Source: a virus
Length of the DNA: 64,000 bases
IMG/VR virus record: IMGVR_UViG_3300036791_001355
Coordinates: 1-64,000 of that record
Strand: one strand, 5' to 3'
Within the stretch, counting starts at the first letter, position 1. Each line of letters opens with the position of its first letter. Positions 1,805 to 22,629 of this stretch are shown here, one piece after another. The position numbers and the translations under genes are program-made. A model generated the notes under the pieces. The model was given only the letters and a program-made list of their open reading frames with translations, was not told where the DNA came from and did no database searches.

Positions 1805-2898
1805 TAGAAGGGGTTGGGCTGGGTGTTGATGCGCCGCACCCGGAAGCTTGGCATGCGGAACTGGTCGAGCATGGCGCTGACCGGCCCGACGAACTCGGAG
1901 ATGCGCCGCCCGGTACGGTCGGGCTTGATGACCTCGCGCAGCATCGGCTCCGCCCCCGGCTCGACGCGGTAGGCCGCGCTGACCGCGTCCTTGCGGATTT
2001 CCGGCGCGGCAATCTTCAGCGCCGCCACCGGCAGCTGCCTGAGATCGACGCCCTTCCACTTGTCGGAGTAGCGCTGGAAGTGCCGCGCGTTGCGGCGCAC
2101 GTAGGAGAGCAGGCTCTCACCGTGCATCGGCCGTGACACGCGCTCGCCATGAGCCATGGCGGGCTCGCTCCACAGCTGCTGCTCCTCGGCCAGACGCTCG
2201 ATTTCCTCGTCGGTGGCGCCCCGCTCCAGGGCCTCGATGCGGCGCCGCAGGCTGCTGCTGTCGGCCCGGGTGTCGCGGCGAGCATCGCGGCGATCATCGC
2301 GGCGGTCGTCATCGTCGTCCGAGCGCCCTTCGTCGCCACCCTCTTCCTCGTCGTCGTCCTTGCGGTCGGCCGCCAGCGGCGTCGGCTTCTCCTTATCGCT
2401 AGGCGGTTCCTTCTCTTCCTCCTTGTGCCACGGCTCCTCCTTCTCCTCGCCGGCCCATTCCTCGATGTCCTTCTCCTTGTCCTTGCGGCCGGAATCCTTG
2501 AACGGCGCCGCCTGCTTGCCCTTGAAGTTCTCGATGCCGGCGTCGCGGCGGCCCCGGTCCTTGCGGCCCCGGTCCTTCATCGACACGCCCCGGTCGCCCG
2601 CGTCACGGCGGGCATCGCGGCGGTCATCGTCATCGTCGTCTGACCGCGCCTCCTCCTCCTTCTTCTCTTTGTCTTCTCCTTCCTCCTCGGCATCGTCCTT
2701 GCGGTCGTCATCATCGTCATCGCTGCGGGCATCACGGCGGTCATCGTCATCGTCCTGCTTGCCGCCGCCCTGTCCGAACAGCGCGTCCAGACGTCGTCCG
2801 ATGGCCGCGTGGGCATCTTTCAGGGCCTGCAACTCCCTGTCCTTGGTCTCTTTTTCACCAGCGGGTGGGGTCGCCGCCCGCATTCCTTCTCCAGCCAT
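1804..2898 (-). CDS. Charged low-complexity head protein, probable scaffold or internal protein
   Basis: The frame is open further upstream, but the ATG at 2898 is preferred because AGGAGGAG precedes it and the upstream part is translated repeat DNA. The 364-residue protein has an extreme composition: the middle (about residues 35-230) is runs of Asp, Glu, Arg and Lys, with repeated DDDDDRRDARR-type blocks. The last 110 residues are ordinary sequence and resemble a C-terminal region seen near DUF2213 proteins in related phages (LSYVRRNARHFQRYSDKWKG, REVIKPDRTGRRISEFVG). Position between the DUF2213 protein and the capsid suggests a scaffold. That role is inferred; the charged repeats could also bind DNA or vary in length between relatives. 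Confidence 0.6.
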   Translation of the reverse strand: MAGEGMRAATPPAGEKETKDRELQALKDAHAAIGRRLDALFGQGGGKQDDDDDRRDARSDDDDDDRKDDAEEEGEDKEKKEEEARSDDDDDDRRDARRDAGDRGVSMKDRGRKDRGRRDAGIENFKGKQAAPFKDSGRKDKEKDIEEWAGEEKEEPWHKEEEKEPPSDKEKPTPLAADRKDDDEEEGGDEGRSDDDDDRRDDRRDARRDTRADSSSLRRRIEALERGATDEEIERLAEEQQLWSEPAMAHGERVSRPMHGESLLSYVRRNARHFQRYSDKWKGVDLRQLPVAALKIAAPEIRKDAVSAAYRVEPGAEPMLREVIKPDRTGRRISEFVGPVSAMLDQFRMPSFRVRRINTQPNPF

Positions 2899-2914
2899 GA
2901 CGGCTCCTCCTGCT

Positions 2915-2955
2915 AAGACGCGTAGGCGCACCGAAGGTGCGCGACATCGCGTCGC
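2915..2955. repeat. Nested palindromes upstream of the scaffold-like gene
   Basis: An outer GACGCG / CGCGTC pair encloses an inner GCGCACC-GAA-GGTGCGC hairpin. The outer pair is the family found at 832, 1787, 3086 and 9244. The inner one resembles the two ACGCACCG hairpins inside the polyvalent gene. It looks like one element inserted into another. Confidence 0.5.
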
Positions 2956-3056
2956 CCTATGCCCGCGCGTGATGAACCGCCGGGAGGCGGGGCCACTCCC
3001 GGTGTCGGTGGTGTCTCGGTTGCTCGAAATTGCGCAAAAATGCGCAGGGGTTTTGA

Positions 3057-4253
3057 TCAGTCCGGTCGGGAGCGAGACTCCCGGAGACGCGACTTCGCGT
3101 CGACCGAGCGACCTATCGGCCCGATCAGCTGCTCGACCTCGGCCAGCCAGGGCCACGCGAGTGGCCCATTCGCCCTCGGCTCAGGCGCCGAATGGGCCAC
3201 CACGCTGTCAGTTCGCGCCGCTGGGGCGGGCAACTCGATCTCGCCATCGGCCGGCTCGGGATCGCCGATGGCAATGCCGGTAGGCGAGCCGTCCTTGTCC
3301 CACACGCCCAGTTCACAGATGGCGAGGTGATCCAGCAGCGACGGCTCGCCCTCCACCAAGAGATGCTTGCCGCCCGCCAGCTGGCGCGTCTCATTGACGC
3401 TGGGATCACGGAAAATGACCGCCGGGCTGGTCGAGAGCCGGTGGCTGCGCATCACCTCCGCCGCGCGCTGGTCGTAGATCTTGCCGATGCCCCACACTTC
3501 GTCGCCCTCGATGTAGGCAAACACGATGCTGCCGATGACCCGGTTGGTGTACTCCTCGGTGTTCAGTTCGTCGGTGGGCGGGTGCTCGATGATGACCGGC
3601 AGCCCGGCGCAGCGGGCCAGGAACTCGGCGTTGAGATAAATCTCCGGGGGCCGCCAGACATACTCCTCCAACTCGGGCCGGTAGCTCACCCCGGTGCCGG
3701 TGATGCGCAAGGCGAAGAGCCAGATATTCTCGTATTGCTGCGGGCTGCCGAACTCGCCCGAGGCGATGGCGCGGGCGATGTCCAACTCGTTCATGTGCAG
3801 GCGGTCCAGCGCCAGCCGTACGCCGGGATGCAGCGGCTGCGGCGGCGAGCCGGGAGAAGCCCAGACCCAGTCGCTCAACTCGCCGTCGCCGTGGCTGAGA
3901 TCGGGCTCGAACTGCGTCTCGACATGGGCCATGAAGGTGGAATAATCGACGCCCATCAGCATGTTGCGGATGAGCAGGGAGACCGCGCCGTGGGCGGTGG
4001 CGCCCAACTCCTCGGCCACCTCGCGCATGGCCGCCTCGTCGGCCTGCTCGTCGTGCTCGATCTCGCCGCCGGGGAGTTCCCAGGTGTCGCGGTCGCGGTG
4101 GCGCACGAACAGCACGCGGTCGCCGTCGTGGCCCCGGTAGAGGATCAGCAGGCCGGCGCCGTGCAGGATACGGCTGGGCGGGGCTTCATCAGCAGCGAAG
4201 ACTGAATGGGGCTGGGCGTCGTCCAGCCGGATGGCTGGCGAGAGCAGGCGCAT
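3057..4253 (-). CDS. Nudix hydrolase fused to DUF2213 (probable prohead-protease-like) protein
   Basis: 398 residues with two parts. Residues about 30-150 form a Nudix domain with a complete Nudix box at 62-84 (Gly, five residues, Glu, then REVAEELG); such enzymes hydrolyse nucleoside diphosphates linked to another group. Residues about 155-300 match DUF2213, found before capsid genes; His224 (VIIEHPPT) and Ser274 or Ser276 (RLSTSPAV) are candidates for a protease pair by analogy with assemblin-like prohead proteases, which is inference. The C-terminal 60 residues are encoded by palindromic repeat DNA (3066-3210). The ATG at 4253 follows the preceding stop closely, and no strong ribosome site was seen. 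The substrate is unknown. Confidence 0.75.
   Translation of the reverse strand: MRLLSPAIRLDDAQPHSVFAADEAPPSRILHGAGLLILYRGHDGDRVLFVRHRDRDTWELPGGEIEHDEQADEAAMREVAEELGATAHGAVSLLIRNMLMGVDYSTFMAHVETQFEPDLSHGDGELSDWVWASPGSPPQPLHPGVRLALDRLHMNELDIARAIASGEFGSPQQYENIWLFALRITGTGVSYRPELEEYVWRPPEIYLNAEFLARCAGLPVIIEHPPTDELNTEEYTNRVIGSIVFAYIEGDEVWGIGKIYDQRAAEVMRSHRLSTSPAVIFRDPSVNETRQLAGGKHLLVEGEPSLLDHLAICELGVWDKDGSPTGIAIGDPEPADGEIELPAPAARTDSVVAHSAPEPRANGPLAWPWLAEVEQLIGPIGRSVDAKSRLRESRSRPD
3066..3116. repeat. TCGCTC element with a GACGCG hairpin inserted in it
   Basis: The reverse form of the dispersed element (GGGAGCGAGACTCCC and later CGAGCGACC) is split by a GACGCG-ACTT-CGCGTC hairpin at 3086-3101. It encodes the last residues of the Nudix-DUF2213 protein. 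Nesting suggests the hairpin arrived second. Confidence 0.5.
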
Positions 4254-4255
4254 AG

Positions 4256-4612
4256 CTAGGTGGTGGCGTCCTTGAGCGCGCCCTTGAACTCGGCCTCGTC
4301 GCTGAACGGCACCTCTTCGCGCACCGCTTCCTTGAGCAACTCGGTGGCCGCTTCCCAGGTGGCGGGGTCGAGGCTTTCTACCTCGATGGTCCGGTCAAAC
4401 TTCTTGCGGTAGGCGTGCGCCGCCAGCTGGGCCTCCAGCTTGTTCTCCTGGGCCTGGATCTCCGCCAGCGTGCGAAACGGCTTGGCGCCCATCGCCTTGG
4501 CCTCACCGTCGAACACCACGTTGCCATCGGGATCGATCAGAATGCCCGGGCTAGCCCGCATGTCGTCGTAGTCGGCTTGCTGTTCAGGGGTGAGTTTGAG
4601 TTTGTCAGCCAT
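4256..4612 (-). CDS. Hypothetical small head-block protein
   Basis: 118 residues, charged, with no motif I recognise. Helix-forming sequence and a stretch LIDPDGNVVFDGEAKAMG can be seen. An ATG at 4630 adds six residues; the ATG at 4612 is preferred because a GGAG lies 11-12 bases upstream, but this is uncertain. It sits between the polyvalent protein and the Nudix-DUF2213 protein in the same operon, so a virion or assembly role is possible. Confidence 0.6.
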   Translation of the reverse strand: MADKLKLTPEQQADYDDMRASPGILIDPDGNVVFDGEAKAMGAKPFRTLAEIQAQENKLEAQLAAHAYRKKFDRTIEVESLDPATWEAATELLKEAVREEVPFSDEAEFKGALKDATT

Positions 4613-4656: not shown

Positions 4657-7600
4657 TTATCCTACCAATGCCTTGATGTGAGTCCGCGTGCCGTCGTGGT
4701 AGATTTCGTAGACTTCGGTGGAGACCCCATGCGGCAGGATCACTTCCCGCTCGTGGTGGCCGACTTGGCCGGCAATGCCCAGCACCTTCTGCCCCTTCTT
4801 GACGGCAAAGTGCCACCAGACATTCTCGTGCTCCTTGTAGCCGGGTTTCGGGCCGATGGAGGCAGAGGTGAAGCCGGTGCGCATGTAGTGGTAGGTGCCC
4901 ACGCCTTTGCCGAGCGCCTGCCTGATTGCCTTGATCTGGTCGTCGTCCATGTGTTCGCCACGGACCAAGTTGATATCCTGGGTGATCGCCACGTCGGGAT
5001 CACGGAACAGCGCCCGCATGGCATCAATCTTGCCCAAGGCCTCTGGTGTCGCTGACTCATGGCCGCGCTGCACGCCGTTGATTTTTTTGTAACCGCCGCC
5101 GCCGTAGGACTGGATCGCTTCCGCATCCTTGCTGTGGGACACCTTCTGCCAGAACCCTGGCTGGAGTGACGGCACGATGTCGTAGGATTCCTGCGAACTC
5201 GTGCTGGCAGGATTCGCCGCCTCCGCCTCGGTCTTGAGCGCGTAGTGCAGGTCGGGGCTGTCCCTGGCTTGCAGCACCTGGGCGTTGGCGGGCGCCGTCA
5301 GCGAGCCGTGCTTGGCGGTCTTGGGCGCGGCGGCCTTGGCCTTCGCGGCTAGGGTTCCCGGCTTCGGCCCCGCTGGCTTGGGGGCGGGCGCGGCCGGCTT
5401 GGCCGCCGAGGGCGGTGCCTCGCCCTTCAGCGCGGCGATCCACTCCTCGCCGAAGCTCTTGGTGAAAGAGCCGGTCAGCTTGGGGTTATCCAGCACCGCC
5501 TCAATGGCGGTGATCTTCTCTGCGTCTGGCTTATCCGAGGTGGCGGCGGCATAGACCGCCTGCTGGCCCTTGGAACTGGCGTGCGGCTGTGGTCCCAGGA
5601 CCGGCGGCGGCTTGCCCTCGATGTCGGCGATGGCCACCGCCACGGCGTGCTTCTCCGCCGGCTCGGTCATGGTGTTCATCAACTCGCCCAGCGACTTGGT
5701 CGCCGTTGCCTTGGCCTTGGGACCGGCCTCCTTGGCCATGGTGGAAACGAACTTGAGCTTTTCCCCCAGGGACATCTGAGCTTTGACGTAGTTCGGAATC
5801 ATGCCGGCGGCGGTGTCGTCTTCCTGCGCCTTGCTCTGCGGCTTGGTGTCCGCCGGCTTCTTCTCGCCCTTCAGCGCCTCGATCAGCTTGGCGCCGTACT
5901 CCTTGCCCGCCGTCGGCCACGCCTGGGCGTACTGCTCCAGAGTCTTGATCTTCGACGCGAGTGGCGCATCACTGGTAGCGACCTGCAGCATGTTCTTCTG
6001 CACGCTGCTGCCGGGGACCGGCAGCTGCGGTAGTGTGGCCGCCGTGGCCTGCTCGGCCGCCTGGGTCGGGGCGTCGCTGATCGCCGCCAGCAGCTTCTCG
6101 CCGTAGGCCTTGTCCGCCGCATCGGTGGCGTGGGCGATGTCGTGCTTGAGTTGCTTGACCTTGGTCTCCAGCTTCCACTGGCCGAAGGTGGCGGACTCGT
6201 AGAGTTCCTTCTGCGTCGCTCCTTGCGGCTTGGGCACCCCGGACACCGCCAGCAACAGTTGCGCGGCATATTCCTTGTTGCTGGGATCGGTCATCTCGGT
6301 GCCGAGCTTCTTGAGCGCGGCGATCTTTTCCGTCGTGGTGGTCCAGGGATTGACCGCGTAACCAAGCAGATCCTGCTGGCCGTAGCTCTGGTTTAGTGGG
6401 TCCGGCAGTTCCGGCCCGGCGGGTTCGGCTTCCTCGGACGCGGCCTTCGCTGGCTTCTTCTTCTCGCCGGCCGCCATCTCCAGCACGCTTAGCCAATCCT
6501 CGGCGTAGGTCTTGGCGGACGGGTCGACCAGCCCCTGGGCAATGGCATCCTTCAGCCACGCCAGCTGCTGCTCGACGGGCAGATCGCCGCTGACCACGTC
6601 GCTGATTTCGGACTCGCCGTAGGTCTTCTTTTCGGGAGCAGCCTGCGCGACCTCCTTCGGCTTGGCCCCCTGCTGCGCTTCCAGCGCCGCGATCACCGTC
6701 TGGCTGTAGTCCCATGTCGGGCTGGCCTTGTTCAGGGTGCCCTTGGCAACCTGCATATCCACGTAGGTGTTGATCGCGTTGATCTTCCCTTCCACCGTCA
6801 TGCTGGGGTGCTCGGCCAGCCCCTTGATGCTTTTGCCGATGACCGAACCGCCGACCAGCCCGGGCGGGTCCGGTACAACCGGGGCGCCCTTCTCGCCCTT
6901 TAGCTCGGCGAGCTTGCCCTCCACGAACTGCGTGTTGGCTGACCCCAGCGGCTTCTTCAGCAAGCCTTCCAAGTAAGCGACCTTTTTTTCTGCCGACGGC
7001 AGATGGTCGACCTGTTGCGTCACCGCCTTGGCGAAAGTCACGTCGGGACCAGCGCCGAAGATGCCGCCTGCCTCCTTGGCTTCCGGTTCCTCGGGCGGCG
7101 CTTCCGCCTCGGCCGCCATTGCCTCCATCTCGGCTGCGCTCGGCGGCGCCGCCTCGGGCGCACCTCCCTTCTCCTTCTTCTTAGGCTTCCACTTGGTGAA
7201 CGTGGCCTTGCCCAGGCTGCCCGCCCCCAACCCCAGCTGGTTCTCGATGTCGGCCAGCAGCACGTTGGCGTAGTTGGCCCAGGAAGAGGAAGACTTGGTC
7301 GCCGAGTAAGCCTTCACGGCGTCGGCCAGCTGGTTCAGTTCCTGATTGGAAAGAGCCTCGCCCTTCTCCAGCGCCTTCTCGACCACGCCGACGATCTTCT
7401 TGGTCGCCGACGCCGCCCCCAGCGCAGGCGATGACGATGGCGTCACCTTGCCGCCGCCACCACCGCCCGAGGTGAACTGCCCGCCGCCCTCGGCCCCGGC
7501 CGGTACACGCGGATGGTCGGCCTCGCTCCAGGCATCGGCCCGGCGAATGAAGTCCTTGTGCGCCTGCTCCGCCGTCCAGGCGTCCTTCTTGGCCTCGGAC

Positions 7601-9228
7601 AGTCCGGCCCGCTTGGCGATATCGTACTTGCGGGCAATCAGCTTGGCGGCCAGATCGGCCCGCTGCTCCGCCGTGCCCGGCCCCTGGCTCTCCACCAGTT
7701 CGCGGATGGTGTCATCGGGCACCGCCACCACCTTCTTGGCGGACTCGCGCAGCTGCTCCTGGCTCATCGAGCCGTAGATGGCGTGCGCCTGGGTGTTGCT
7801 CGGGCTGCGCAGGCTCTCCCATTCGCCCGCCTCTTTACCGAAGGCGTTGCCCTTGGGACCGCCCTGGGCGCGGAAGATCATCGCCCCGCCCGCGTCCAAG
7901 GTGGTCATGTCGCCGTCAACGAGGCCCTGGTTGTCGTATTCCAGCCCGGCCGCGTCCCAGTTGGCCAGCCACGCATGGGTGGCAAAGTTCTCCTGCGCCG
8001 CCTGCTTCTGCTCGGCGCTGTGGCGGTTGATGTTCTTGACGCCCTCTTTCCACTTGGTGGCGGTGCCGAGCTTGCCGTCGCCGATGTCGATGGGCTCGGC
8101 CGACAGGATCGGCGAGCCCGCCGCCTCGTACAGGCGCGAGGCGAGAAGCTCGTTCTTGGCGTGGGCTAACGACTTGGAATACTTGACATAGTATTTCTGG
8201 CCTTCCGGCGAGGTGAAGCGCCCGCCGGGATTGCTGCCCAGCTGCCCGCCGGTCTTGGTCATGCCCGCCAGCGCCAGTTGCCCGCCCGGCTTCCCGGGAG
8301 CAGCCTGCGCGACCTTCTCCTCCTTGGGCGGGTGGTCGCTCGGAGTCTCGCTCCCGGGCTTGAGAAACTTGGTGACCATCTTGCGGTCAACCGGGGCGTT
8401 GAGGTGGTCCTCCAGTTCCTCGACCGGCGCCAGGGTAACGCTGGAGGCCTCCTCGCCGTGATCCTCGGGCGTGCCGCCCACCCGGCGAGCGAAGTAGTAG
8501 CGGGCGTTGCTGGTGGAGCGCTCGACATCGCCGGCAAAGCCGGTCAGTTCCACCTTCAGCCCGGTTTCCTCGTAGGCCTCCTTGATGGCGGTGGCCCTGA
8601 GCGACAGGCCAGGGTCTTGGGTGCCCTTGGGGAAGGTCGCCTTGTAGCCGCCAAAACCCCGCTTGGGATGCATCACCCAGACGCTGCCGTCGGGCTCCTT
8701 GATGATCACCCCGGCGCCCTGCGCGAAGCCCTCGGGCAGGGGCGGTGGGGGTGGGGCCTCGATCTTGGGGCCGCTGTCGGCCAGCTTCTGCCAGCCACCC
8801 CGGGTCTGCGGCGGTGTCCACGAGGCAAAGGCGACGCCATGCAGAGCCTTGGGCGCGGCACTACCCTTCTTGCCGAAGGTCTGCGACTTCTTGGCAGCCT
8901 TGGGTGCCTCCGGTGCGGCGCCCCCGCCACCAGCGCCTGCGGTGAACTTGCCGCCCTCGTTGCGCGGATGCTCGGCTTCCTTGAAGTCGGAGTCCCCACG
9001 CACCGTCTTCGGTGCGTCTTGCCGCCCCGGCAGCAGGTTGAAGCGCCGGGCCTGGATCAGGTAGTCGATCTGGCGCGAGATGTCGGCCAGCGACTGGGCG
9101 ATATCCTCCAGGCCTGCCTCGTCCCCACGCACCGTCTTCGGTGCGTCCTTGCGCGCGCCATGGCGTACCTGCGGTTCCAGAAAGCGGGCGACGGCGTCAC
9201 GCCATGCCCAGGGAGCGCCGTCGTCCAT
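4657..9228 (-). CDS. Giant polyvalent protein: Nudix, kinase-like, helical repeats, ADP-ribosyltransferase
   Basis: 1,523 residues. In order: an N-terminal segment; a Nudix-like domain about 165-290 whose box (FPKGTQDPGLSL, KEAYEETGL) lacks the usual first Glu; a HipA-like kinase-type domain about 335-545 with Lys349, the loop NWDAAGLEYDNQG (423-435) and LDAGG (444-448); eight or nine degenerate helical repeats of 50-60 residues about 610-1270; a Pro/Ala linker; and an ADP-ribosyltransferase domain about 1350-1523 with Arg1423 (LVRGEH), the FTSAS motif (1453) and Glu1493-x-Glu1495. This fits the polyvalent protein class described in phages and conjugative elements, whose enzymatic parts are thought to be delivered with the DNA to act on the host. 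Its place in the head operon agrees. Targets are unknown. Confidence 0.85.
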   Translation of the reverse strand: MDDGAPWAWRDAVARFLEPQVRHGARKDAPKTVRGDEAGLEDIAQSLADISRQIDYLIQARRFNLLPGRQDAPKTVRGDSDFKEAEHPRNEGGKFTAGAGGGGAAPEAPKAAKKSQTFGKKGSAAPKALHGVAFASWTPPQTRGGWQKLADSGPKIEAPPPPPLPEGFAQGAGVIIKEPDGSVWVMHPKRGFGGYKATFPKGTQDPGLSLRATAIKEAYEETGLKVELTGFAGDVERSTSNARYYFARRVGGTPEDHGEEASSVTLAPVEELEDHLNAPVDRKMVTKFLKPGSETPSDHPPKEEKVAQAAPGKPGGQLALAGMTKTGGQLGSNPGGRFTSPEGQKYYVKYSKSLAHAKNELLASRLYEAAGSPILSAEPIDIGDGKLGTATKWKEGVKNINRHSAEQKQAAQENFATHAWLANWDAAGLEYDNQGLVDGDMTTLDAGGAMIFRAQGGPKGNAFGKEAGEWESLRSPSNTQAHAIYGSMSQEQLRESAKKVVAVPDDTIRELVESQGPGTAEQRADLAAKLIARKYDIAKRAGLSEAKKDAWTAEQAHKDFIRRADAWSEADHPRVPAGAEGGGQFTSGGGGGGKVTPSSSPALGAASATKKIVGVVEKALEKGEALSNQELNQLADAVKAYSATKSSSSWANYANVLLADIENQLGLGAGSLGKATFTKWKPKKKEKGGAPEAAPPSAAEMEAMAAEAEAPPEEPEAKEAGGIFGAGPDVTFAKAVTQQVDHLPSAEKKVAYLEGLLKKPLGSANTQFVEGKLAELKGEKGAPVVPDPPGLVGGSVIGKSIKGLAEHPSMTVEGKINAINTYVDMQVAKGTLNKASPTWDYSQTVIAALEAQQGAKPKEVAQAAPEKKTYGESEISDVVSGDLPVEQQLAWLKDAIAQGLVDPSAKTYAEDWLSVLEMAAGEKKKPAKAASEEAEPAGPELPDPLNQSYGQQDLLGYAVNPWTTTTEKIAALKKLGTEMTDPSNKEYAAQLLLAVSGVPKPQGATQKELYESATFGQWKLETKVKQLKHDIAHATDAADKAYGEKLLAAISDAPTQAAEQATAATLPQLPVPGSSVQKNMLQVATSDAPLASKIKTLEQYAQAWPTAGKEYGAKLIEALKGEKKPADTKPQSKAQEDDTAAGMIPNYVKAQMSLGEKLKFVSTMAKEAGPKAKATATKSLGELMNTMTEPAEKHAVAVAIADIEGKPPPVLGPQPHASSKGQQAVYAAATSDKPDAEKITAIEAVLDNPKLTGSFTKSFGEEWIAALKGEAPPSAAKPAAPAPKPAGPKPGTLAAKAKAAAPKTAKHGSLTAPANAQVLQARDSPDLHYALKTEAEAANPASTSSQESYDIVPSLQPGFWQKVSHSKDAEAIQSYGGGGYKKINGVQRGHESATPEALGKIDAMRALFRDPDVAITQDINLVRGEHMDDDQIKAIRQALGKGVGTYHYMRTGFTSASIGPKPGYKEHENVWWHFAVKKGQKVLGIAGQVGHHEREVILPHGVSTEVYEIYHDGTRTHIKALVG
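8334..8356. repeat. TCGCTC dispersed element, in frame inside the polyvalent gene
   Basis: A 23-base copy of the dispersed element lies in the linker between the Nudix and kinase-like domains and is translated as part of PGSETPSDHPP. It marks a tolerated insertion in an unstructured linker. Confidence 0.55.
8998..9017. repeat. ACGCACCG hairpin, copy 1, inside the polyvalent gene
   Basis: Perfect inverted repeat ACGCACCG-TCTT-CGGTGCGT in coding sequence. The surrounding 27 bases are identical to copy 2, and both are translated as DAPKTVRGD. Confidence 0.65.
9127..9146. repeat. ACGCACCG hairpin, copy 2, inside the polyvalent gene
   Basis: Second copy, 129 bases from copy 1 and in the same reading frame, so the protein carries DAPKTVRGD at residues 28-36 and 71-79. 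Confidence 0.65.
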
Positions 9229-9354: not shown

Positions 9355-9690
9355 ATGAACGACCATCCTGACCTGTTCGCCCTGTTCGACCTGCCCGCCG
9401 GCATCGCCCGCCGCGACGAAGGCATGGCGCGGGTTGCCGACCACAACCCGAACTGGACTGCCGAGGCGCTGCGCATCATCGCCACCCTGCCGCGCGGCTG
9501 GACCGGCCTGCCGGAAGACTGGCGCCCGATGGTCGAGGCCCGCATCGGCCCGCCCACCAGTTCCTTTGCCTATGGCCCGCTGACCAAGACCGCCAGACAG
9601 ATCGGCCTCGTCCGCCTGACCGGGCGCCGCCTGCCGATGCGCCGCCGCACCTCCAATGGCCGCATGACCGACGAATACGAGCGCCTCTAG
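9355..9690 (+). CDS. Hypothetical protein in a plus-strand cassette
   Basis: 111 residues, unknown function. An ATG at 9343 is in frame, but 9355 has GGGGGA at good spacing. The N-terminal half is acidic and the C-terminal half very basic (RRLPMRRRTSNGRM), suggesting nucleic-acid contact. It is transcribed against the flanking head genes, has its own promoter, and its stop overlaps the stop of the gpF-like gene. Confidence 0.65.
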   Translation: MNDHPDLFALFDLPAGIARRDEGMARVADHNPNWTAEALRIIATLPRGWTGLPEDWRPMVEARIGPPTSSFAYGPLTKTARQIGLVRLTGRRLPMRRRTSNGRMTDEYERL

Positions 9691-11318
9691 GCCTTGGCGC
9701 GTACCAGGGTCAGGGCGTCGTTGCCCGCCGCCGTCAGCATGCTCTCGGGCAACTCACGCAGGTGATAGAGGTAGGTATAATAACACCTACAGTTGTGCGT
9801 AACGATTCCATTGGCTATATACCAGCCGCTACTGGTCTGTAGATTGAACACATGCCCCGTCCAGCGCCGCTGATCGACCTTGATGATGCGCGTCACGCGT
9901 ACGAAGCGGGAGAGAGCATTCTCTCGCTGTCCCGTCGGCTGGGAGCGTCGTGCCGATATCTCACTTACAGCCTGGAACAGGCTGGCGTCACGCTCCGCAA
10001 CGGCAGTGAGGCCAGCGTATTGCGGATGGCCCGCGCAGGTGCCGAGGGCCGCGCCAAGCTGATCGCCGCCGCCCATGCCGCCCGTCGCGGCAGTAAGGCG
10101 TCCGAAGTCGAACTGATCCGCCGCGCCAGCCGCAAGCCCCGCCTGCACGGGTTCGGTGAAGACCACGTGCTCACCGCGCTGCATGCCGTCGGCATTGCCG
10201 CCGAAGCGCAGCGGCCGGTCGGTCCATACAACGTCGATATCGCTTTCGCTGCCGTCGCCGTGGAACTGCTTACGCTGCCCACCGCGCACCTCCGTGACCC
10301 CAAGTTCGAACAGCGCGCCGAATATTTGCGCAATGTTGGTTACTGTGTGGTCTTGGTGACTTTCAGATGGAGATACCCGGATGATCTCACCGGCAACCTC
10401 GATGAGGTCATCGCCTTCTTGCAAGGCGCCAATAGCGACCCAGCCGTCAGGCGTCAGGACTGGATGATTCGGTGTGGCGCGCAGCGTTTTGCCCGTGGCC
10501 GTAATCACCTTGGTCAGCTGACCGCTGTACCAACGCCGGTACGCTACTTCCACACCGTCAGCGAATGGAATCTGCGTCGTGCCGGGTAAGCAGTACACTT
10601 CCTCGCCCGGCTGCGTGATCTGGTCGGTGTAGCCGGCCCGCCCGGCCTTCATCAGGCGCTGCTGCAAGGCCCAGTTGCCCCGGATGGCATAGACCCAGTC
10701 GGCGCCCTTGTAGCGGGCGTCGCGGTCGCGGTGATCGGGCCGGAAATCGTAGTGCACCTGCCTGAAGTGACTGCGCCACAGGGCGGCGATGGCGCCGCCG
10801 TCGGTGGCCAGGATGCTGTTGATCGCCGACACCAGCTTGTGGCCCTGGTCGATCAGCACCCGCCGCTCGCGGAAACTCTGCCCGGCCAGTTCCTTGCGCA
10901 CGTCGTTCTTGGTCTCGACCTTGTCGACCTTGGCGCCGCCGACCGGGATCGAGGTGGCCCAGCCCTGAAAGCGCCGCAGCGTGTCGGCGATGGTCTGCTG
11001 GCGGTTCAGCTTGATGAGGTTGGCCGAGGCCAGGATGCGCCGGTCTAGCTCGGCCCGCAGCTTCGGCTTGACCAGTTCCAGGGTGAAGCGAGAGACGCCC
11101 GGGTGGTGGCGCAGGATCAGGCCCCGGTTGATCAGCCGCTCATAGGTGCCCGCCAACACCCGGCGCAGCTGCTCGTCCAGCACCGCCTCGGAGACCATCT
11201 GCTCCAGCGCCGACTGGCGGATGGTCTCGACCCAGTATTGCAACCGCTCCTCGCTGTCGTAGCCGTGCTCGGCGAGATCGGCGACGGCGGCCGAGACGGT
11301 TTCGAAGAACGTCGCCAT
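9687..11318 (-). CDS. gpF-like head morphogenesis protein interrupted by an intein
   Basis: 543 codons. Residues 1-242 plus 510-543 form a 276-residue protein of the Mu gpF-like head morphogenesis / minor head family, which acts at the portal vertex; the conserved C-terminal element CRCYYTYLYHLREL is present. Between Tyr242 and Cys510 lies a 267-residue intein starting with Cys243 and ending His508-Asn509, so splicing would rebuild EEVY-CRCYY. The ATG at 11318 lies just beyond the stop of the 80-residue gene upstream. Gene order (portal, gpF-like, polyvalent, DUF2213) is typical. The protein needs splicing to restore its conserved end. Confidence 0.88.
   Translation of the reverse strand: MATFFETVSAAVADLAEHGYDSEERLQYWVETIRQSALEQMVSEAVLDEQLRRVLAGTYERLINRGLILRHHPGVSRFTLELVKPKLRAELDRRILASANLIKLNRQQTIADTLRRFQGWATSIPVGGAKVDKVETKNDVRKELAGQSFRERRVLIDQGHKLVSAINSILATDGGAIAALWRSHFRQVHYDFRPDHRDRDARYKGADWVYAIRGNWALQQRLMKAGRAGYTDQITQPGEEVYCLPGTTQIPFADGVEVAYRRWYSGQLTKVITATGKTLRATPNHPVLTPDGWVAIGALQEGDDLIEVAGEIIRVSPSESHQDHTVTNIAQIFGALFELGVTEVRGGQRKQFHGDGSESDIDVVWTDRPLRFGGNADGMQRGEHVVFTEPVQAGLAAGAADQFDFGRLTAATGGMGGGDQLGAALGTCAGHPQYAGLTAVAERDASLFQAVSEISARRSQPTGQRENALSRFVRVTRIIKVDQRRWTGHVFNLQTSSGWYIANGIVTHNCRCYYTYLYHLRELPESMLTAAGNDALTLVRAKA
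9792..10592 (-). mobile_element. Intein (267 residues) without an in-frame endonuclease
   Basis: Splicing features are complete: Cys1 (CLPGTTQI), the block B TxxH as Thr282-Pro-Asn-His285, the C-terminal block VFNLQTSSGWYIANGIVTHN, penultimate His, terminal Asn and Cys at +1 of the extein. Residues between the blocks (about 313-470) contain no LAGLIDADG or HNH motif. Instead the opposite strand encodes a free-standing EDxHD endonuclease covering residues 244-489. The insertion point lies in the most conserved part of the host protein, as is usual for inteins. Confidence 0.93.
9852..10589 (+). CDS. EDxHD / Vsr-like homing endonuclease encoded antisense within the intein
   Basis: 245 residues. 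The N-terminal half holds a helix-turn-helix-like region (AYEAGESILSLSRRLG, then EQAGVTLRNGSEAS). The C-terminal half matches the EDxHD homing-endonuclease family, relatives of Vsr and I-Bth0305I: Glu103, then QRPVGPYNVDIAFAAVAVEL with Asp129 and Glu138, then His146 and Asp149, and RAEYLRNVGYCVVLV. These enzymes cut DNA to spread their host element. The TAA stop is at 10587-10589 and the intein Cys1 codon at 10590-10592, so the gene lies wholly within the intein. Each codon is the exact reverse complement of an intein codon. No strong ribosome site precedes the ATG; an upstream stop at 9840 limits other starts. Confidence 0.85.
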   Translation: MPRPAPLIDLDDARHAYEAGESILSLSRRLGASCRYLTYSLEQAGVTLRNGSEASVLRMARAGAEGRAKLIAAAHAARRGSKASEVELIRRASRKPRLHGFGEDHVLTALHAVGIAAEAQRPVGPYNVDIAFAAVAVELLTLPTAHLRDPKFEQRAEYLRNVGYCVVLVTFRWRYPDDLTGNLDEVIAFLQGANSDPAVRRQDWMIRCGAQRFARGRNHLGQLTAVPTPVRYFHTVSEWNLRRAG

Positions 11319-21072: not shown

Positions 21073-22629
21073 TCAGGGGTGTGGGCCTGTGGCGACATAG
21101 GCGAACAGCGGGAGGTCGTCCTCGACGCGCTGCTTGGCCATGGCGCAGTAGGTGGGGTTGAGGTCGATGCCGATGGCGTGGCGCTGGAGTCTATCGGCGG
21201 CGAGGAGGGTGGTACCGGCGCCTGAGAAGCAATCTAAAACTACACAGGGAACCGGAGCAGGAGTTGTCCACTCCATGCGTGATCCACAGTGTGGGCATTG
21301 CCGCGCATCGGAAACGTCCTCTGACAATGAGGGCAGGTCACAATGTAGACGGGCCTCTTTGCCCCGTCGTGCTGTCTCTTTTCCATCAGTTCCAGATTGC
21401 TGAGGCGATTGTCGAGCCTGTTGCCATTCTTGTGGTGGACCACCTCGGCCGAGGTCAGAAGCCTGCCCAGCTTCTTCTCCATAACCAGCCGATGCTCCAT
21501 CACGTAGCCATCGCCCGTTGCATTCGGATGGCCCTTCCGAAGAAGCATCCGGTAACCCTTTGAGGTTACTGTCCACCCCTTCGTTGTGGAGCGATTGGCC
21601 GCTGTCCACCTTTGAGCACAAAGCCTCGAACAGCATTTCTGCCTGCTGGCCACTGGCTGAAACAGGATCGCGCATTGGCTGCATTTGATCGGCTGAAGAA
21701 TGCGTCGTCCTGGCATCCTTATGGTCTAGCACGGCCTCACATTTGACACACCGGTATTCATGGCATGGGCAGGCGGGTGTCCAGCCGGTGGTGAGGCGTT
21801 GTATGGGCTCGTTGTAGGCGTTGCCTGCGGTGCCGCGTGAGTGCCGTGCCTCTTGCTTTGGTCCCATCCAGTGATCGTGGCGGCGGTAGGTGATTTCGCT
21901 CTGGCGTATCCATGGGGCACCGCACTGGGCACAGCAGCCGTGCTCGGAGGTTCCGGCCTTGATGCATCGCTCGGCCAGTTCGGGCGGCATGGTGGCGAAG
22001 TGAGCGGCGCTATAGGAGGTGGTGGCGATGGTCCACACGTTGCGGGCGTTGGCGCCCAGAGGATTGAGGGTGACCATGGCGTCCTTGCCGCCCAGGGCGA
22101 TGCGGGCGCCGCGCTCGCCGGTCATGGTGTGGCTGAAGCCGTTCACCGGGGAGCGGGCGCGCTCGATGCTATTGGCTTGGTGCGGCTCGCGGATGGCGTC
22201 GGCGTCGTAGAAATATCTGGGCTGTTTGGTGAGCAGGAAGATGTGCTCGTGGGCTGAGGTCGGGCGGTCGGTGATGGATTCCGGCATGGGATTCGGTTTG
22301 CACCAGATGATGTCCGAGCGCAGGTACCACCCGTCCGCTTGGAGCGCGAGGGCGACGCGGGCGGGCATTAGCTGCAGCTGCTTGTTGGTGTGGCCGTCGC
22401 CCAGGTTCAGCCACAAGGTGCCATCGGGGCGGAGAATGCGGCGCACCTCGCGGAAGACCGCGACCAGGGTGGTGATATAGGCCTCTGGCGTAGCTTCCAA
22501 GCCGATCTGGGCGGCCATGCCATAGTTCCTGTGCCCGTAGTAAGGGGGGCTGGTGACACAGCTGTGGACGCTGCTTGCGGGCAGGGTGGGCAGGATGGTG
22601 CGGCAGTCGCCTTGCAGCAGGCGATTCAC
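21073..22629 (-). CDS. DNA methyltransferase (beta class N4/N6) with a nested HNH gene
   Basis: 518 residues from a GTG at 22629; an ATG at 22740 is in frame but overlaps the upstream gene and translates repeat DNA. Motif IV TSPPYYG lies near residue 28 and motif I CFSGAGTT near the end, the order of beta-class amino-methyltransferases. This enzyme probably protects phage DNA against restriction. Two knuckles (CVKC, CPHC) form a split zinc ribbon; between them about 140 residues of unusual sequence correspond to the HNH gene read in another frame. The methyltransferase frame stays open and ends normally, so it may still be active. A dispersed element abuts the GTG. Confidence 0.8.
21240..21716 (-). 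CDS. HNH homing endonuclease nested in the methyltransferase gene
   Basis: 158 residues, same strand as the methyltransferase but shifted by one base. An N-terminal zinc-finger-like region (CSQC, then CCSRLC), then the HNH core [10 protein letters not shown] and [20 protein letters not shown] (His94, His95, Asn97, Asn107), and a C-terminal CPHC. The pattern is that of phage HNH homing endonucleases. The stop falls at the first codons of methyltransferase motif I (CVVLDCFSG). No group I intron core could fit, so it appears to be an inserted gene that leaves the host frame open. Confidence 0.85.

Follow-up and report, generated by a model that had tools for sequence, protein, structure and literature searches.

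How a homing endonuclease gene can be housed inside a DNA methyltransferase (MTase) gene whose own reading frame remains open is the question raised by this locus; to our knowledge, homing elements in working genes are generally thought to require an intron or an intein for their removal. The 64,000-nucleotide stretch analyzed here (the window) comes from an IMG/VR virus record of 75.5 kb, and the nested pair is summarized in Table 1. As described in the initial annotation, the HNH gene uses the same strand as the MTase, is shifted from it by one base, and is enclosed by the open host frame, at least as the sequence reads. The host frame begins with GTG, although the true start may lie further in, and contains no internal stop codon across the insert or elsewhere; its product matches PF01555 (E = 4e-44) and phrog_67 (E = 6e-68), and this single ORF contains TSPPYYG (with the catalytic SPPY) and, C-terminal to it, the SAM motif DxFxGxGT. 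The nested gene matches PF13392 HNH_3 (E = 2.9e-13) and phrog_20891 (E = 4e-23) and carries the HH...N signature of the HNH_3 nuclease domain; its stop codon, TAG at 21,240–21,242, falls within the V-V codons that open MTase motif I, in agreement with the earlier placement of the HNH end. No well-placed Shine-Dalgarno sequence was present for the HNH start, where AAGG lies directly against the ATG, and no RNA structure was found around this start (z = +1.3).

Table 1. Nested gene pair and associated sequence features, in window positions
Feature	Position	Strand	Basis or remark
Host MTase ORF, beta-class DNA N6/N4, 555 aa	21073..22740	-	PF01555, phrog_67, AF2 fold match
Nested HNH_3 endonuclease, 158 aa, ATG start	21240..21716	-	PF13392, phrog_20891; one base off the host frame
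MTase motif I	21208..21240	-	Immediately follows the element (3' side); codons at the 5' edge of the motif form the HNH stop
Inserted element, inferred extent about 505 bp	21258..21762	-	Comparison with insertion-free homologs; borders +/- a few codons
5' host-frame zinc knuckle CVKC (putative)	21739..21750	-	Lies before the HNH start codon; belongs to the element
3' host-frame zinc knuckle CPHC (putative)	21286..21297	-	Shares DNA with the HNH C-terminal end, read in the other frame; belongs to the element

The long linker within the MTase had been taken for an insertion, and alignment with insertion-free homologs bears this out: the gap at the insert site is mostly 12–15 residues in those homologs versus 178 in the window, and therefore the long linker is not ancestral. 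In the insertion-free pattern, TTGWxPxCxC is followed by about six residues and then by VPCxVLDPF. Further elements were sought by scanning viral contigs with an MTase query and with HNH or HNH-alignment queries, and 189 unique HNHs of this kind were obtained, comprising 18 sense-nested in MTases, 6 sense-nested in other ORFs, 28 antisense-nested, and 137 free, where an HNH was called nested only if the enclosing ORF was open. One locus tallied among the six other-ORF cases (L356) is in fact an MTase, with its element at another site, after motif IV. The window arrangement was found in ten cases, namely the window and nine IMG/VR loci (L015, L190, L224, L272, L273, L274, L275, L280, and L282), and all ten elements lie directly 5' of motif I in phase +1. 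Their host MTases fall into several subfamilies, among them the HFAxFP and HPTVKP types. An eleventh pre-motif-I insertion, in L124, carries an HNH of a different type at the same place. In all 19 pairs with an HNH inside a motif-I ORF, that ORF was open; four separate motif-I genes near HNHs were all complete MTases, so the surveyed HNH/motif-I pairs included no MTase that an HNH of this kind had disrupted. The L275 MTase shows an apparent frameshift upstream of its element, and the L280 locus is cut by the contig end. A near-identical phage pair with and without the insert was not found, the element recurring instead in distant MTases; a scan of genome contigs recovered MTases and no nested HNH of the window type.

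Whether the open host frame could be a matter of chance was evaluated by a synonymous-codon shuffle of the HNH gene, in which the HNH protein and the codon pool were kept over 4000 shuffles. For the window, no stop codon was observed in the MTase frame versus a mean of 6.3 expected, and none of the 4000 shuffles was stop-free; in the trimmed region, 0.05% of the shuffles were stop-free in this frame, while the third frame, serving as a control, held 5 stops versus 5.1 expected. Over the eleven pre-motif-I insertions (the ten window-type elements and L124), the host frame contained 0 stops against about 54 expected, and the third-frame control contained 75 against 66 expected. Selection therefore maintains the open MTase frame, a result that favors read-through over splicing. 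Moreover, in a pairwise codon-position test, the host-frame similarity between the window and L015 was 0.51 versus 0.33 +/- 0.03 predicted from HNH coding alone, a difference to which shared ancestry contributes; this confounded comparison suggests constraint on both frames and serves here as supporting evidence only.

The insert is probably a homing element devoid of any splicing device, in which one frame encodes an HNH endonuclease akin to homing HNHs and the other encodes a tolerated loop stapled by zinc. In such an arrangement, the HNH would be translated from the internal ATG, which lacks a good ribosome site, and would cut insert-less MTase genes at the conserved motif I codons or close by, whereupon repair would copy the element into the cut gene; homing of this kind is suggested because the element recurs. 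The MTase would be translated straight through the insert, yielding an open loop of about 145–230 residues between the knuckles, and the two knuckles may meet on one zinc ion and staple the loop ends, so that both MTase halves could still fold into one presumably active enzyme. The earlier expectation of two proteins from the insert without an intron or intein is likely; the host frame is open and neither an intron nor an intein is detectable. With more reserve, though still on the side of acceptance, a splicing-free class of homing elements is proposed that gains host tolerance through overlapping code, pairing an HNH frame with a zinc-ribbon staple frame (CxxC at one end and CPxC at the other) and fitting beside a catalytic motif of several MTase subfamilies and perhaps in other genes.

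Structural modeling is consistent with a single enzyme. The window MTase was modeled with AF2 on a 41-sequence alignment. Both halves form one beta-class fold in this model, and structural alignments run across the insert; the two halves can be overlaid on MTases of a single chain (TM by target 0.81 for 8urk), with fold matches to M.BceJIV, MboIIA, and RsrI at a TM by target of about 0.75–0.85. Residues 343–444 of the model are disordered, and the knuckle regions (at about 298 and 449) are better ordered than this segment, with block means of 79 and 59–77 that denote moderate confidence. For the HNH family alignment (A5), the sole PDB match was I-HmuI (1u3e), which was weak (E = 0.03). In the HNH frame of the same alignment, a lone CPHC/CPFC knuckle near the C-terminus is nearly invariant and has no visible partner knuckle.

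It had been stated that, in the MTase frame, CVKC and CPHC lie on either side of the HNH, which is correct for the HNH core, and that they are the two halves of the host's own zinc ribbon, which did not hold: the closest insertion-free relatives are without the pair, and nine other elements have the same pair at their ends. All ten window-type elements carry, in the host frame, a CxxC before the HNH domain and a CPxC after it. Where the frames overlap, the C, P, and C of the latter are invariant in the host frame (zero entropy) and mostly vary more in the HNH frame. Measured from the HH motif of the HNH, the CPxC is positioned at +47 to +49 codons in nine elements; in L282 and L356 it is found at +41 codons, beyond the HNH stop codon, and is therefore no by-product of HNH coding there. 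An HNH homing into DNA that already encoded a zinc ribbon, such that each host MTase possessed the ribbon before insertion, would also account for a pair at this site, and many MTases of the family do carry a native zinc motif nearby (CxxCGxPW ... TTGWxPxCxC), so that pre-motif-I regions are often cysteine-rich. However, the pair is missing from the nearest insertion-free relatives, for example L107 and L108 for the window and L042 for L272, and the HPTVKP-type relative of L272 has the sequence LVTPPGGTVLDPF; in a comparison of 155 linkers, only HNH-bearing genes showed the extra CVxC/CPxC pair. The spacing between the 3' knuckle and the HNH motif is fixed across different hosts, both knuckles are present in L356 at another MTase site, and a DNA-pattern scan of viral contigs (CPxCG, three residues, E/D, and WTTP) matched the contig of L015 only. 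A ribbon native to the host, rejected on the relatives and this pattern scan, is thus improbable. Because the knuckles are absent from the nearest insertion-free relatives, recur in hosts of several subfamilies, and hold the 3' member at a constant HH distance, they are, by these sequence comparisons, the element's own, and the ribbon travels with it. Imperfect pairs were noted in L283 (CSRC...CSCG) and L366 (CKC...CQKC), and the pair is absent from L124, L295, and the ShiLan-type loci tested. The L283 insert is counted as suggestive only; its host is unmatched in Pfam, has no phage homolog found, and looks like a PolX-like nucleotidyltransferase, and is probably not an MTase.

HNH genes are frequent in phage group I introns, and the HNH likeness to I-HmuI, weak as it is, points the same way; the insert might accordingly be an unrecognized self-splicing intron with an HNH ORF, across which the host frame is open by chance. 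This reading is very unlikely given the deficit of host-frame stops over the eleven insertions, and it was rejected on the Rfam searches, which returned no intron in the window region even at E <= 1 (the sole match being a sub-threshold snoRNA outside the element) and none in eleven related loci at the gathering threshold; intein domains were likewise absent from the window MTase by Pfam and NCBIfam. Alternatively, the element may have decayed so that one product is dead, for example with a non-functional long MTase beside a live HNH, or the reverse. Such decay would be in keeping with an HNH lacking a clear ribosome site, with the apparent upstream frameshift in the L275 MTase, and with the frequent dispensability of phage orphan MTases (PMC11855218); nevertheless, it is unlikely, since no stop codon interrupts either frame in any of the ten window-type elements, the host frame is open against expectation, and the window/L015 host-frame similarity exceeds that predicted from HNH coding, subject to the same contribution of shared ancestry.

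Hidden out-of-frame HNHs in mycobacteriophage methylases (the ShiLan domain and Pacc40) were described by Arsenault et al. in 2025 (PMC11855218), the ShiLan domain having first been seen in PMC9957025. The principle of such a nested gene is therefore already in print, and the window element is a related but distinct variant. ShiLan-type loci were recovered in this survey as L023 (Mantra), L024 (Totinger), and L026 (Starcevich). In ShiLan, as in the window, the HNH is out of frame and on the same strand in a phage DNA methylase, the host frame is open, and an intron or intein signature is lacking; the L273 HNH has a 36% homolog in the HNH of ShiLan. The ShiLan site, however, is the TALKP..EPIVVARKP region, whereas the window element sits directly before motif I in another methylase subfamily; the phase is +2 in the three ShiLan-type loci, whose HNHs lie elsewhere in the gene, and +1 in the window, where the HNH has an ATG start and a stop codon at motif I. 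The window element bears host-frame zinc knuckles at both ends, unlike the ShiLan-type loci tested, and the accessible text of PMC11855218 reports zinc fingers in the HNH frame only. The absence of stops likewise gives strong statistical support for read-through in the window and weak support in the ShiLan-type loci tested, for which the shuffle returned a P0 of 0.46 (L023) and 0.04 (L026), weak or not significant. The hidden HNH of Pacc40 gp60, as described in PMC11855218, is the second out-of-frame endonuclease insertion to be published but occupies another methylase site and involves a different methylase and HNH, with host-frame zinc motifs unreported in that description.

Among classical homing systems, I-HmuI-type HNH endonucleases share the HNH nuclease core with the element but are encoded in a group I intron, whereas the window element has no detectable intron. 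Inteins with homing endonucleases are similar in being mobile insertions beside a conserved host-protein motif that are translated with the host; the element differs in having no splicing domains and in placing its nuclease in another frame, and its host-frame peptide seems to be retained, closed by the putative zinc knuckles, while an intein is excised. If confirmed, this arrangement would represent a third way, in which an element is kept at both the RNA and the protein level and is tolerated through a host-frame structural module that it brings itself.

Several other nested nucleases were encountered. In the window, a 543-aa protein (9687–11318, minus strand) carries an intein match (PF14890) just below the cut-off and is probably the intein case mentioned in the initial annotation; a 245-aa ORF (9852–10589, plus strand) lies antisense within it; this ORF matches an HTH weakly and may include a nuclease-like part. 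The MTase of L015 contains, besides its window-type element, a second, antisense HNH (1969–2421, minus strand; PF01844, E = 1.7e-8), and its frame is open across both. In L273 (780–3602), an MTase combines a window-type element with a match to an intein N-terminus and a LAGLIDADG domain, and in L021 (1908–4562), one MTase ORF holds two out-of-frame HNHs (2539–3273 and 3848–4282), one of them in an intein-like region. Antisense HNHs in intein-like regions were also observed in L016-L018, L212, L218, L244, L249, L255, L326, and L336, mostly with terminase-like hosts, and in L240 with a clamp-loader-like host; Pfam terminase matches were obtained for L212, L218, and L326, and Pfam Intein_splicing matches for L218, L240, and L326, the last alone being above the cut-off. 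In Gordonia phage GAL1 (L189, 2197–3237), an out-of-frame HNH resides in a DUF3310 gene (PF11753), with the host segment VNHPKHY / VNKPQHY part-repeated on both sides. Finally, the window encodes a 1523-aa protein (4657–9228, minus strand) that has a NUDIX domain and, toward the C-terminal end, matches an ADP-ribosyltransferase weakly and below threshold.
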